The notes under the pieces: model-generated
The model's database searches: none
The model's input: only the letters and a program-made list of their open reading frames with translations
What the model was told of the DNA's origin: nothing
From: Hydractinia symbiolongicarpus
Lineage: Eukaryota > Cnidaria > Hydrozoa > Anthoathecata > Hydractiniidae
Direction of reading: 5' to 3'
Length of the DNA stretch: 64,000 bases
Assembly: GCF_029227915.1 (NCBI RefSeq)
Contig: NC_079884.1
Coordinates: 3,782,001 to 3,846,000 of the forward strand
Position numbers and translations under genes: made by a program
In this document: positions 37,389 to 46,300 of the stretch, piece by piece
Layout: every line of letters begins with the position of its first letter
Position numbering within the stretch: the first letter of the stretch is position 1

Positions 37389-40300
37389 TTAGCACCAGTC
37401 GTCATCTTCATTTGACTCTGGCAAACCGTACATTTCGTATGGACTTTTACCAGACTTTATAGCAAGCGCGATTTGCTGTTTACTTGTAGATGGAGCAGCT
37501 GCCTCCTCCTGCGGTGGTTGTTCGTTGTTTACAGAATACGTAGATTGAGACAACCTTTGCGGTGGAGAGTTACGATATGAAAAAAAGTTCGCTAAGTTTG
37601 GCGTGGAGAGGTTAAAAGCCCCATTTACGCTTGGTAGTAGCTATAACAAGAAAATATTGAATTGAAAACTACTGTACCTTGGCGACGTGAAAAATAATCG
37701 AGTTTTTTATTTACCTCGCTTATATGGAAAGGTGATTTTGTTTTTACAGGTGCCACTACCGGGGGAGGTTCCTCCTCCACTATAGTCTCCTTGTGGACTG
37801 CAGAACCATTCCCATTTGACACAACCTAAAAACAACATGGTTAGCTAATACCACTTTAAAACAATAATTTTTGGTAACAGTTTCCAAATCTTAAGGTGGT
37901 TCCCTGGGAAACAAGGATTTTTTTCCAAAAAATGGTTTTTTTTCAAAATGCTTTGGCACAAAGTTGTATCATAATAAAATAGGAAGAAAAAAATTTCTTT
38001 TCTTAAATTTTTTTGATGACGTCACTAATTATGCGCATAATTAACAAATTATAGGCTAAAAACATATGGTATCTCCTAACAAGGATATCTCTAGGTAGAC
38101 TTTTCCAATCAAGATAAAACTTTGCACATGTGTTAATATTGAGTAGCTGAAGGGACTGAGTGAATTACTTTTTTAATTTTTTATCTAAATCGCATCGGGT
38201 TGGCCACCAAACTTGACTTTTCCGGAAAAGAGAATATCAATGACAACATACTAGATTCTAGGAGAAGAAAAAATAGTAAAATTGAAAAACTAATTCACAC
38301 AGTCCCTCCTAAATAGAATGAAGAACTGATGTTCGAAATTTCAGCTCAAAAGCTTGTTCCAATGAAAAGTTATCTTTGTTAGGAGTTCAAAAATCTGCAA
38401 AAATCTTGTTTTGAAATATCGGTAAAAGAAAAAAAAACAGTTTGTATAAAAAAAACTAATCTGTTCATAAACTAATAATTAAAGTCCAACAAAAGCACCA
38501 TATCCATATGTTTCCCCTTCCTCAAGCAAATTCTTATCTTCATAACCTTTTCTGGCAGCTCTCTGCCTTTTTCTGTCATTTTTAACTCTGTCAGTAGACT
38601 TGCGGTTTGACTCTTTCACACGTTTTGTGTTAGCTTTACGAAAACCAGTTTCGGTATAATAACCAGGTTCTAAACCAAGTTTGGAATATACTGGTAACAG
38701 TCCTGTTTCTCCATTGTTATATGCTATTACTGCAGATGCTACTGCTGTTTTGAAAACAGCATTTCCAACATAAACTCTTTTAGGGCATCTTGACCAGATG
38801 ACATTGTTGAGAGACTCATTTACGTTTTGTGTTTGACCATGAAGGCATTTCTTAAGTAGATCCTCACTTCCAAGGTCTTTGCTTGAAAATACAGGTGCAA
38901 TGAGGTCTGAGACAACTTTATCAATGTTTAAATGCCCTTTGTAAGTAGATTCACCAGTTATCTTATCCCTTTGATATTTACACCAAGAGTTCTCAGTTCG
39001 GGGACAGTACATGTGACGCTTTTCTTCATCAGGTTCATTTGTCGAATGAAAAAGGACAGCAGCAACAGATTTACGCATAGCATAAAGATTATCAGTGTTC
39101 TGTCTAATACCTTAAGGGAACTTATTTTGGCGGGAACTAATTTTGGCGGACGAAGGAAATCTAAAAAAAATTTAATTTTGGCGGGAACTAATTTTGGCGG
39201 ATCAACGAAATTTTTAATTTTGGCGGGAACTTATTTTGGCGGGTGGCGGTTTTTTTTAATTTTGGCGGGAACTTATTTTGGCGGGTCAGCGGATTTTTTA
39301 ATTTTGGCGGGAACTAATTTTGGCGAGTGAAGGATTTTTTCAAATTTCAACGAAAATTTTCTTTGGTAAAGATGTAGAAATAAGCATTACAAAGCAAAGA
39401 ATTTTAAAACAAATACTAAAAATCTACTCTTCTTCATCGTCTATGATAATGTCAAATGCATTCCGACTAAAGTCTATGTCATCCTCGTCACGCGTGTACT
39501 CCTCTTCTTTGTCATCGTCATTTTCGACTCGCACGTTGATGAAGCTATCCTTTAATAAATCTGGCGCATTGATTATGTCGGTTATGGGCTGAGTAATTAC
39601 ACTATTGCTTTCTGGCAGCGGTGATAGATCTTGAAAAGGGTCAAGGGATTCAAGTGAAGTGGATCCCATGCGAACTGCGTCGTAAATTCCAGATGCTTTC
39701 CACCCATTCAAAACGACTTCACGGCCATCTGCCGAAGTGATATGGTTATAAAACTGGAGGAGCCAACTTGCATGAAGAGGCTTGATGGTGGTCAGCTTTA
39801 ATTGAATATTTATATCTTCGATCTTTTTGTTAAGGGATAGCTCTTTCTCGATCTGTTTTGAATACCATTCAGTGAACAAATTTCTCATGAATTGCTTGCA
39901 ATGATTATTCACAGTAAGATCCAAGGGCTGGAATATATGTGTCATGTTACTTGGAACCAAAACCAGGAAGATGTTGTTCTTCTTCAGCAATTCGGTAACT
40001 TCCTCAGTAATTTGTCCTCGAAAGACATCGAATATTAGAAGAGCAGCTTGCTTTGGGTTATTTAACTTCTTCCTCTGGTCTTCAACGTGCTTTAGAACGA
40101 TCTCTTTGATGACTTTGATGGATTCTTGTGTATTGCTGTAGTGTTTGGGATTAACGCTTAGTGAGAACGATTCGGGGAATTCAAACTTTGGGAGGCTTTG
40201 ATTTGTTTTCCCCCCATATATCAGTTGCATTGGCAGAAAAGAACCATCAAGCGTAATAATAAAGGTACCAGTAAGGCATCTTTTGTCGGAAGATCCAACG

Positions 40301-43300
40301 ATAGGGACGGACGATGAACCCTTTTTCGCCATGGTGTGATTCATTCTTGGAACAAACTTAAGAGGTGTCTGGTCCAGATTCATAACAAGTTGGTGAGGGA
40401 TGCTGTGTTGTTCGATGGTCGAAACAATATCGTGAAGAAATAGTAATTCGCACTCCTTTTTGGCTCCTTCAGTGATTTCAACTTTGGAGGTCGTTTTCAT
40501 TCTTTTCTTGAAACCCATTCTCTTGAAGAGGCTTTTTGCCCAACTGTTATCAATTTTAATATGCCCCAACTCAAATTGAGGGTTTCGTGATATTAGAGCT
40601 TTCGCTGCAGCGGTTGCAACTGTTCTTGAAACAACACCTCCTCGATTTCTCAGTGCAATTAAAAATCTTTGTACCATCTCATCTAGACTGCCAAGGAACA
40701 GAGGTCTACCGCGTTTCAAAGGAACAAATTTGGTTACCACGCTACGTTTTTCTCGGGTTGAATCTTTCAGCTCTTTTTTGTAAAGATTGCCAAATCTTCG
40801 AGCTGTACTCTCACTTAACGGCCTGTCTTTGGTTTGAAACTTTGTGATTGCAGCCGCACCACCATGAATCGCAACATATTTTCCGATATCAAATCTTTCT
40901 TTTTCTGACCAACGGTTGTATGATTTTTTGCCACTGGATTTAACATTTTCAGTCGCGTCTGTAACAGCTTCGTAGTCTAACGAACCAAGGGATGATTCTT
41001 GCTGGAAGTCAGTTGGTTGTGGGCCTAAAATGAATAAAACGAACCACTATGTAATTGCGAATTTTGACCAAAAATTAAAAATTTTCAAACAAAGAAAGAA
41101 ACTTCTTCGCAGGTAGGTATAACAAAAAAAAACATCAAAGAGAAATACTTACTTTGTTCCCTAGAACTGTTTGAAGGTGTTTCGTCTGAAGTTTTTTCCT
41201 TTTCAGCGGCCCTTTGTTGAGCTTCTTTCTCTTGTAATTTAGCTAACTTCCTGATGTAAGACATTTTGAAAGCCGGGAGATAAAAAAGGAAACGTAAGTT
41301 ATCTGTATCCTGTATATTTACTCGAACATAAACATTCCATTCACTTGGCCTATATTTACACTAAAAATCGAACAAAAACATTCTTTTTTTCTTGGCTAAG
41401 GCCCGTTTAGACTACCCAATCGAACAAAAACATTCTTTTTTTCTTCGCTAAGGCCCGTTTAGACTAACCAATCGAACAAAAACATTCTATTTAATTGGGA
41501 AAGTTCGGTCTACACTGACAAATAGAACAAAAACGTTCTATTTTCATGCTAGGCAATTAAAAAATCGATCGATTGACATTTTTGTTTTTCATCAGAGCTA
41601 GAAAAGAAAAGACGTCCATATGGCTTACAACAAGACGTTCGAGTTTACAGCTGCTGTCAGAGGATTCCATTATTATAAAACTTATTGGAAACCTGAGGAA
41701 AATCAATCACTGGACTGCTTTCATGAGAACAACAATGTTTTCGATAGATTTGCAATCAAAGTTTGTGAATTCGGAAATGACAAACCAGTTGGCCATTTAC
41801 CCAAAGAAATCTCAAGGGTTACAAAATTTCTTCTGGACAGAGGAGCGTCTATGAAATCCACGTTGACAAGTGTACACTATCGAAGATCACCTCTCGTTCA
41901 AGGAGGCTTGGAGATCCCCTGTAAAATAACTGTTACTTTACCAGGGACAGTAAACAATCTTTTGGTTCTTGCAAGATACCAACAACTTGTAGAAGCCTTG
42001 TATACAGAGCCGAAAGAGGAATTGATTCTTGGTTCGTTCTTACATATTGCAGTTATTTTAGATGTCGTGGTTCCAACCGAAGAGAGACCAAAGCGTAAAA
42101 AAAATACAGCCAAAAGCCAAAGCAAAGAGACGAAAAAGCAAAAAGATATTCGAAACTTTTTTGGAAACACCTCAGCTGCACCAGCCCCAAAAAGGCAAAA
42201 AGTTAACAACAAACCTAAAAAGTCGTCACCATCGTCAAGCAAGGACTTAGAAATCATAAATATTGATTAAAAATTATCTTGTATTAGAGGTTTATTATGA
42301 CATAATATTTCTAGCGCAAAGGTATATTTCTAAAAGATATAAAAAATTGAAAAAAAGTTGATTTTTGTCGATTTTTTAAGGGGAACTTATTTTGGCGGAT
42401 CAACGAAATTTTTAATTTTGGCGGGAACTTATTTTGGCGGGTGGCGATTTTTTTTAATTTTGGCGGGAACTAATTTTGGCGGGTGAGTAAAATATTTAAT
42501 TTTGGCGGGAACTAATTTTGGCGGATTTTGCCCCAATCCGCCAAATCCGCCAAAATTAGTTCCCGCCAAAATAAGTTCCCTTAAGGTAGCCATTCCATAA
42601 TGGTTTTGAAGTGTATTCATGATCTTGTCTGTGAGTCTTCCCTTTCCTCTGCCAATGCCTTTTCCATCTGAAAGCTTTACACCCTTGTGGTCAGTTTTAA
42701 TTTTTCGCAATCTGGTTCCGACACGTTTCTGTACATGCCCGATACATTCACCTTTGTTCAAGCTGTGTCCTGGGTAGGGATTTGTACTACAAAGTTCCAC
42801 AAAAGATTTTGTGTCTCCGTCTCCAATGTAAAAAGTGTATCAGAGTTTGTGAGTTTTCACAGAGCGATGGTAAATACGTTTCAAGCCGGTAATCTCCATG
42901 GCACCAGAACTGCCTCTATGGTTGATAGAGCAAAACGCAGCATGATTTTCTTTCCACTCTTTATGCTTCTCAGAATGGGTGTCATTTGTCTTTTCCCAAA
43001 CATCACACTCTACACTTTTTCGACATAACCTCAGTGTCAATACACTTTCCATCTGCGATCAATGTCATTACCCCATTAAGGGATGAAAATCCGCGCTTTT
43101 GCCAGGCGCCATCACCGCTGACAGCTATATTAGCGATATCCTCTTTATCAACACTACTTGGGTCATTTCTTTTTGTTTTCTCATGCACTTCTTTTGCTGC
43201 TGTAGCCATGGACTCATGTGAAGTCTGTACATAAGCATTGTGGACCAATGAATTAATGTTTTCAAATGTTGATTTTGTCATTGGTTGTGGCATATTCATG

Positions 43301-46300
43301 CATCTGCAAAATTTTTCGATGCCGCTGAAACCAATACAATTCTCACGAAATGCAACTACTGTCCTTCTATTAATGTCATAACCTTTTCTGCCATTAACTG
43401 GATCTGGTTTATCACACTCTTTAGAAGAACAAAACTGCAAATTCCATGGGCATTCTGCACATGAGATTAAAAGGAAATGAGCCATTCCCATTTTGGCTTG
43501 CAATAGATGTTCCACGCTTACAGAAGCTGCACAGTCTGGGCATCTTCCTATCATAAAAATCAAAGACATTAACAAGTCACTCTCTATTATAATGTTACAG
43601 TTAGCAACAAACTCTTTCTCAATTGTTTCTGAGGTAGTACTACAATCTAATTTGGCAGCTGATGCTCCAGTTTGTGTTGACGGTTCAGGTTCGGTGAGTT
43701 CTTGGATTGGTTCTGAAGATGTTCCGTTTAATGTTGTATTGCTGGCTGTAACATTTGCACCATTAAAACCTTTTCTCTTCCTTGATCTTCTCTTCTGATA
43801 ACTTTTCTTGTTAGCCATGACTTTAATTGGTTAAAAGAATCAAGCTATTTGTGTTTAAAAAATGGAGGAAGAATTTATGACCTTTCACCAGGAGCTCTAA
43901 CTTTGAAAGCACTTCAGGATGGTTTCGGTGTATATCTTATAGTAAAACTTTGCCGTGCAAGATAGAACAGCCCTTTGGCGTCAAAATGGCGGCATTTTCA
44001 CGCCCTTACGACTTTTTAACAAAAAGATATTGGCCTAAATCAGTTTCTAAGGACCGTTGCTAAGGAAATTTTCGAAATTTTAGGTTCTAACTGTATAGAA
44101 ACTTCTGTAAAATTTGCAAAATTATTGCAGGACCTTGGAAAACCATTTATACCACCTTATAGCTGAGAGAATAACCTTTCCAACAGTATATAATACTCAA
44201 TATTGAAAAAAAAATGAAAAAGGGCTTTATTTCCCAGGGAACCACCTTAAGGGTGTTATCTCAGGATATTTCAAGACAGCTATGTTCTGTTTGTTTTCCA
44301 ACCTCATCCCCAGGGTTTTGTGGCCCCTAAGCCGTTATTACAGAGTTGCCGCTAATAATTTTATCAACAAGGCAAAATGCCCTTTCTGCCAGGTTGGTTT
44401 TGTTTCTAAACAGTGTTGGTGCTTTAACTGGTCGTATCAACTCTTACCACAGTTTTCTTCGGAGCAGACTTTTTTAAATGTTTATAATTTTCGTAAATCA
44501 GTTTGGCGCAATAGATTTTACCAACTGTCATCTGGTTAGCACCTGCAATAAAATAAAAAGAGGACATATTTTCATGCTATACCAGACAGGCGTGGGTAAG
44601 TTCACTAAGAATATATTTGTTATGCAAACATTTGCTGGATGCAAAGGTGTTGTGCGAAGCAACATACAGCTCTACACAAAAACTAAGAAATCAACTTGTT
44701 TTAGTCAATCTTCCAACCTCTCCACATAAGACAGTTGGTGATGATCTGTTTCATAAGTTCTTGTGTTGATGAAGGAATAACGGCTATTGTAGGTATAACT
44801 ACTAACTTTAATAATATTTAAACTTTTACCTTGCGGGCGCTTAGGAATCACATGGTCCAGTGTCTTTTTCGTTATATTTGGCCAAACTCGTTTGAGCATC
44901 AAACGTAATTCTAAATCGTTGCTATGAAGGTTGTCTAGGAAAAAATCAAGTAAAATTACGGCTATTGTCAAACTTCTGTTCCAAAACATTTAATATTTGA
45001 AAGATATATAAATTTTCTATAGTTCTCTCTTCTAATATCTAAGAGAATAGAATATTGTATTATGTTGAGGTATATTCAGGGCGTAGTTAATTAGGCAAAC
45101 CCTCCTTTCGCCAACCAAAAAAAATATCAAACACGAAAAAATTCTACTAGAGGAAACACAATGGCTTGATCTTTTTAATTAATTTAATTAATTTATTGAT
45201 CTATTTTCGTCTTTATTGATGCAGTTTCGTATTGTTGTCCAAATTCTTATAGTGCCTTTAGCCAGTCTAACGAGTTGAAATCTCTTTTTTTGCTCAGTAG
45301 ATTCCAACCATGGTAGGGTCTCCTTGGTCACTACATACGAAAAAGTCCCATAAATCACCACATACGAAGAAGTCCCATAAATCACCACATACGAAAAAGT
45401 CCCATAAATCACCACATACGAAAAAGTCCCATAAATCACCACATACGAAAAAGTCCCATATATTTGTAATCTTGCTCCTCCTCCAACTGAGAATCTGTAT
45501 GTCTCTGATCATGTTTGTATTATTTTCATATAATGATCAAAACATCAATGGTCCACAGCAATACTAACTTTTCCATAATCGAATAAAAACAATGCTGAGG
45601 TGAGGTATATTATCCATGTACATTACTTTCTCAGTGCCTTCTGTTTTATATTTTTTAACACTTCAGATTAGACAATAAATCACTCCATTTGTAAGTCCCA
45701 CATTTGCTTGTCATTTATCGAAGCTCACATTATTGATGCTCGTAGAATGAAGATTGGTGATACTGTTGCTTAAGGAAAAAATCATGCAGAGGAATATAAA
45801 GGCACTTACTCTGTTCCGTCATAATGTTTAAGGCTGTTCTCACTAGCGCAAATAAAGTTGCTGTGAAGTCCACTGTGTTATCTGGATGTAGCGGCATGTT
45901 CATTCGAATTAAGCGCTACAAAAAAGACAACAGCAATACACACTTATGCGTCGACAAAAATGCATTAAAGAACAAGAAATGATCATGTGAACCCGCCAGA
46001 GTTTATCGAGTGGATAAGAACAATAATTTTATTGTGCAATGGAATAAGAAACAGAATAGTATAACCTACCTTATAGGCTACAACTTTTGGACATTTTGTT
46101 CCTAAACCAATAGGTGGTGACATCTGACGTAATAGTTGACACACTTCTGTGTGTTTAATGCGTCCGCTGAAAAGAAATACTTACTGCATTACAGCTTTCG
46201 TTTCATTTACATATTTATTTACCCATAATTAGCATGAGAGAATTTTCTCAAAAAGTCACCTTATGTTAATTTTCGCGAAGACTTATTTTCGAACCTTTCC

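Follow-up and report, generated by a model that had tools for sequence, protein, structure and literature searches.

A two-gene pogo-type transposon of Hydractinia symbiolongicarpus pairs its transposase with a HIRAN protein bearing PIP-type and SIM-like tail motifs

Transposons of the pogo superfamily (pogo, Tigger, Passer and their kin) share a DDE_1 transposase with three catalytic aspartates (DD35D), a TA target and short terminal inverted repeats (TIRs). In the bacterial transposon Tn7, TnsE, an accessory protein apart from the transposase, docks on the sliding clamp. In the literature, PCNA-interacting protein (PIP) boxes were reported on the pogo, Tigger and Lemi1 transposases, and the paper in question describes the pogo transposase as a PCNA interactor, calls the functional relevance of such motifs unclear and names Tn7 and the beta clamp (PMC5371812). 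Reviews assign to pogo elements one or two open reading frames (ORFs), encoding the transposase (PMC7386202), and to Tigger a single ORF (PMC9219625); DNA transposons in general may contain additional ORFs (PMC7325037). Srs2 recognises SUMO-modified PCNA by a PCNA motif together with a SUMO-interacting motif (SIM) made up of its last five residues, IIVID (PMC4030836). Here, we analysed a transposon located in a stretch of 64,000 nucleotides of the Hydractinia symbiolongicarpus genome ('the window'; assembly GCF_029227915.1, contig NC_079884.1, positions 3,782,001 to 3,846,000), which combines a pogo-type transposase with a divergent gene encoding a HIRAN protein. A literature search at title and abstract level, covering few subscription papers and no repeat databases, revealed no eukaryotic transposon with HIRAN; in one fungal genome paper among those listed (PMC13237565), the word is an author's first name.

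An earlier note on this DNA, made from the letters alone, had proposed a two-gene element in which the transposase is accompanied by a HIRAN protein with a PIP-type tail, and this turned out to be a real observation (Table 1). The interpretation given there is supported in part; targeting or protection of replication forks, as put forward in the note, is a candidate role. The ends of the element form a perfect 43-bp inverted repeat with TA at each side, in line with the TA target duplication and the TIRs of up to approximately 60 bp of the pogo superfamily. The transposase is intact (570 amino acids (aa), minus strand, two exons read from the sequence), and its catalytic triad D255, D370 and D406 along with a match to PF03184 (DDE_1, E 3.3e-10) agrees with the DDD signature of the superfamily. 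Of the helix-turn-helix domains by which the superfamily binds DNA (HTH_Tnp_Tc5, CENP-B_N or psq), HTH_Tnp_Tc5 matches the window transposase weakly (E 0.033, 14.6 bits at a cutoff of 22.2) and the transposase of locus L036, a Tigger-type element introduced below, with E 1.7e-12. What distinguishes the window element from described members of the superfamily is its additional, divergently oriented HIRAN gene; within the window's clade, it is this partner that bears the PIP-like motif.

The domain itself was correctly recognised in the earlier note, as Pfam PF08797 matches the window protein with 32.5 bits (gathering score 24.7) and its predicted structure matches the HIRAN domain of HLTF. Compared to HLTF and Rad5, transposon HIRANs have the same fold and mostly retain the DNA-contact positions, but stand alone without helicase or RING, bear a tail with PIP-type and SIM-like motifs and have a G[FY]HxY...W signature in common in the copies read. 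By analogy with HLTF, we infer that they bind single-stranded 3' ends. HIRAN is not mainly a host gene in this genome, in which a Pfam scan yielded 91 HIRAN matches, mostly in repeated families; an outlying match at C3:13870189 (80.9 bits) is probably a host HLTF-type exon. No relative turned up when viral contigs were queried with the HIRAN protein and with alignment A1. The HIRAN of L029 (2195-2914) is extended at the N-terminus by a stretch rich in Cys and has a tail that is acidic, with no Pfam family at cutoff, and L033 and L035 are similar.

Pairing of HIRAN with a transposase is recurrent. As only 150 of 784 and 150 of 780 HIRAN candidates were scored in the searches, all pairing counts are lower bounds. 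For the window family, 105 of 150 HIRAN rows and 82 of 83 transposase rows were tabulated (mainly short or weak rows were omitted), and at least 59 of the 82 transposase places have a HIRAN on the opposite strand, upstream and within 6 kb, among the matches listed. Split by identity, these are 59/66 places at 46% or more and 0/16 at 36-43%; six of seven fetched places of the latter group do hold a diverged, divergent HIRAN-family ORF, which a profile built from 120 homologues detects with E 5e-16 to 3e-29. The diverged HIRAN of L033 is split across two frames. Among 20 diverged loci, 13 have a TA-flanked TIR pair of common design (TAC[CT]TTA... plus TTTSGCG repeats), and no pair was found in L009, L010, L014, L019, L020, L022 and L028. 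The Pfam scan of the genome also revealed a second HIRAN family residing in Tigger-type elements. L036, a 2.75-kb element with the TIR TACAGTGGAATCCC..., encodes a divergent 192-aa HIRAN (PF08797, 34.1 bits) and a transposase that lies in two frames in this copy and ends QSSIKDYFK, and L038 and L041 have HIRAN in antisense orientation between two transposase frames, which are probably exons. With 114 of 142 transposase rows and 108 of 150 HIRAN rows tabulated (again omitting mainly short or weak rows), at least 73 of 114 Tigger-type transposase places have, among the matches listed, a HIRAN no more than 3.5 kb away on the other strand, and two have one nearby on the same strand; of three unpaired places fetched, L041 turned out to hold a HIRAN. 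Separately, L037 (2658-3878) consists of 1.2 kb between perfect TIRs, in which an intact HIRAN ORF of 202 aa is present and no transposase ORF is listed.

The window element family is young. Its 216-aa HIRAN protein is present 22 times at 100% identity among the matches listed, 19 of them 622 bp from a full-length match to the 524-aa exon-2 query and one near a partial match; two have no listed transposase, one of which (L006) retains a 48-aa transposase fragment. Five of eight fetched copies (L001, L002, L005, L007 and L008) show 0-1 base differences to the window over the 969 bp to the right TA, beyond which their flanks differ, and none in the 1500 bp upstream. The other three have suffered a small deletion (L003), loss of a terminus (L004) or an internal deletion (L006).

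Two motifs are conserved in the HIRAN tails of the window's clade. QKDIRNFF of the window satisfies the full PIP-box pattern Qxx[ILM]xx[FY][FY], and DI[RQ]x[FY][FY] occurs in 50 of the 64 tails retained from 120 homologues (anchored tail of at least 45 aa), window included, at a shuffle expectation of 0.0; in-genome families have forms such as KDIRSFF and SKDIRNFF. A hydrophobic-Asp C-terminus follows in 61 of 78 rows having the tail motif (78 of 120 homologues retained; window included; shuffle expectation 0.21). These 61 proteins combine, by sequence, a PCNA-type motif with a SIM-like extreme C-terminus in the manner of Srs2 and PARI, in a transposon protein with HIRAN instead of a helicase. 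Some outgroup HIRANs have a SIM-like end as well (VIEID in L030, VIVIDD in L034). The tail is predicted to bind PCNA via DIRxFF and SUMO via its C-terminus. DIRxFF presumably resembles the N-terminus of RFC1; a PDB search made for this likeness gave no match, and DIRKFF was absent from the papers listed. A PDB sequence search with a 26-aa tail peptide likewise gave no match.

The position of the PIP-like motif depends on the clade. We scanned the first 40 aa of transposases for [ILMVF]xx[FYWH][FY], with clades taken from a quick tree of 93 listed homologues of at least 440 aa (of 227; named pogo reference transposases not included). Outgroup clades have the motif in 14/16, 7/7, 4/4 and 30/37 transposases (shuffle expectations 2.6, 0.2, 0.3 and 2.3), with starts including MSLHKYF, MALFKYF, DLRDYF and FLNYF; the fetched HIRAN tails of these clades are devoid of it. 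A pattern without F, applied to 30 aa, was found in 25/60 and 15/33 transposases (4.3 and 1.8). The count for window-clade transposases is 0/13 (1.0); as exon 1 is missing from the gene models that make up most of these rows, this absence is based on the window, L015, L017, L018, L023, L026 and P0211. Exon 1 starts of this clade, e.g. that of the window or MSFLRKMQL, are similar to the outgroup start and have no aromatic pair. All four Tigger-type transposases read to the end (L036, L038, L041 and L042) bear the motif at the C-terminus, where pogo and Tigger are known to have it (PMC5371812); the locus boundary truncates those of L039 and L043, and the frame of L040 ends otherwise. Since the motif is found in the HIRAN tail in the window's clade, at the transposase N-terminus in outgroups and at the C-terminus in Tigger-type elements, the dock seems to change place between the two proteins while the HIRAN partner stays. 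In the sister clade (P0191 and kin), most transposases start with MSLFQFGF or similar, perhaps an altered N-terminal PIP-like motif; the best matches of P0191 in the genome belong to the window's own family (44%).

But why should pogo and Tigger transposases bear PCNA motifs? There is no settled answer, and a HIRAN partner with the same type of dock speaks to this question. We suggest that the transposase would cut and join, with the HIRAN protein as an element-encoded accessory factor whose domain would hold single-stranded 3' ends as in HLTF, whose DIRxFF motif would dock on PCNA and whose last residues would bind SUMO on PCNA. Through these contacts, it may tether the transposition complex, or the repair of the resulting breaks, to 3' ends carrying PCNA during S phase, i.e. 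to replication forks or sites of repair synthesis. In related families, the transposase would bear the PCNA dock and HIRAN would supply DNA-end binding, alone or with a SUMO-type end. For this proposal of a HIRAN partner tethering transposition or repair to PCNA-bearing 3' ends, which presumes a physical link between transposase and HIRAN and a role in S phase, we consider the chances to be even. On this reading, pogo-type elements have a second gene, that of HIRAN, which has been overlooked. A broader and tentative extension, to which we give a little under an even chance, is that the pogo superfamily possesses an ancient two-protein replication interface of HIRAN plus one PCNA dock per element, moved among transposase C-terminus, N-terminus and HIRAN tail (there joined to an Srs2-like SUMO end), as eukaryotic counterpart of the clamp-directed targeting of Tn7. 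If true, a dock on either protein would mean that selection maintains the PCNA link itself, and a young family with paired genes would offer a testable two-component system and perhaps a counterpart of TnsE in eukaryotes. TnsE is likewise an element-encoded accessory, albeit a bacterial and unrelated protein, and targeting is a candidate role for the HIRAN protein.

Several observations weigh against the tethering proposal. Elements lacking HIRAN, named in the earlier note as a ground for refutation, do exist alongside the many relatives with the pair: in L042, the transposase frame is open and has a PIP-type end, and the 3.5 kb fetched contain no HIRAN, L043 apparently lost its HIRAN by deletion, and no HIRAN-family ORF was seen in the broken copy L032 with the 120-homologue profile. 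Because unpaired places include L042 and L043, the HIRAN partner is common and not universal. The PIP box, attributed to the HIRAN protein in that note, was found on this protein only in the window's clade; in all other families read, it is the transposase that bears it. Among transposases of the MSLFQFGF clade, just 2/21 have the N-terminal motif (shuffle expectation 1.6). At family level, the canonical Q of the PIP box is kept in only 15/50, the motif is weakened in several families of this genome (DIRDMF, DIRVMF, DIRDML), and the SIM-like end is missing in L029-type HIRANs and in the Tigger-type L036, L038 and L039. The tail is mostly disordered in the structural model (predicted local distance difference test, pLDDT, below 50 at residues 147-156, 158-171 and 186-209). 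With regard to the domain, HLTF residue N90, which was mutated together with N91, has an Asn counterpart in no more than 15/50, and outgroup HIRANs have diverged beyond Pfam (L029 no match; L030 13.9 bits, E 0.05, below cutoff); a profile built from relatives picks up both. Close in-genome pairs show ratios of non-synonymous to synonymous substitutions (dN/dS) of 0.31-0.44, and one pair with few changes 1.59.

The likeliest alternative, still rather unlikely in our view, is that HIRAN acts on the products of transposition and has no part in target choice: it would bind the 3' overhangs of the excised element or of the broken donor site, with the PCNA and SUMO motifs recruiting repair synthesis, which would favour templated gap repair and thereby a rise in copy number. 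The transposase class of the window element leaves short 3' overhangs. These would suit HLTF HIRAN, which takes one single-stranded dinucleotide (PMC4666394), and Srs2, the closest analogue with PIP and SIM, functions in recombination control (PMC4030836). The anatomy predicted is the same as for fork targeting, and nothing separates the two. We consider it improbable that HIRAN is a regulator or decoy that competes for (SUMO-)PCNA with HLTF or Srs2-like factors of the host and weakens, at the element, either silencing or the host's surveillance of forks; such a function would fit an architecture resembling these host factors (HLTF HIRAN; PIP plus SIM of Srs2), but would not need a fixed partner gene, whereas HIRAN goes along with a transposase gene, in most cases of opposite orientation, and either of the two partners can bear the PIP-like motif. 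Short motifs can also be conserved for other partners, and DIRxFF and the C-terminal motif might bind e.g. the transposase, the PIP likeness being convergent. The poorly conserved Q would agree with this, and PCNA binding is a prediction from motifs; we give it little credence, since a similar motif is present on the transposase in outgroup clades whose fetched HIRAN tails are devoid of it and PCNA is an established partner of the pogo transposase (PMC5371812). That HIRAN is a captured host gene without function, a passenger or chance neighbour, as copies and families without it (L042, L043) might suggest, is highly improbable given open HIRAN frames with conserved motifs in families approximately 50% identical, pairing in several deeply diverged families and a dN/dS of 0.15 between two families.

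Table 1 Features of the transposon in the window (positions refer to the window)
Feature	Position	Strand	Remarks
Whole element with flanking TA	39108..42588	.	core 39110-42586, 3477 bp
Left TIR including TA	39108..39150	+	
Left array of TTTTGGCGGGAACT repeats	39125..39347	+	42-bp period over 39171-39347
Transposase exon 2	39424..41024	-	DDE_1, DD35D, stop codon
Transposase intron	41025..41152	-	GTAAGT...TTTTAG, 128 bp; predicted from sequence alone
Transposase exon 1	41153..41264	-	N-terminus MSYIRKLAK; outgroup transposases often MSLxxYF at the same place
Putative divergent promoter region	41265..41619	.	355 bp
HIRAN accessory gene	41620..42270	+	216 aa, divergent from transposase
HIRAN fold	41623..42048	+	residues ~2-143; Pfam match 8-86; model similar to HLTF HIRAN for residues 1-140
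PIP-type motif QKDIRNFF	42139..42162	+	residues 174-181
SIM-like C-terminal LEIINID	42247..42267	+	protein ends IINID
Right array of TTTTGGCGGGAACT repeats	42381..42571	+	
Right TIR including TA	42546..42588	-	

The TTTTGGCGGGAACT arrays are perhaps transposase-binding repeats. Terminal and subterminal TTTTGGCGGGAA repeats (39125-39347 and 42381-42571) place 19 of the window's 30 such 8-mers inside the element, and the TTTSGCG core is retained in the TIRs of diverged families. The TTTTGGCGGGAA repeats match the E2F consensus TTTSSCGS; control of the element by E2F was set aside, as fitting sites lie at the gene ends and none between the two genes. Between the divergent genes, there are four copies of a 51-nt direct repeat (41335-41540) with GAACAAAAAC[AG]TTC. 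The element was inserted into an ORF of something else, since a 293-codon minus-strand frame stays open when its flanks (38479-39078 and 42589-43818) are fused with a single TA. Further downstream, the window contains a 27-bp tandem repeat (45328-45460; 4.9 copies, 97% matches).
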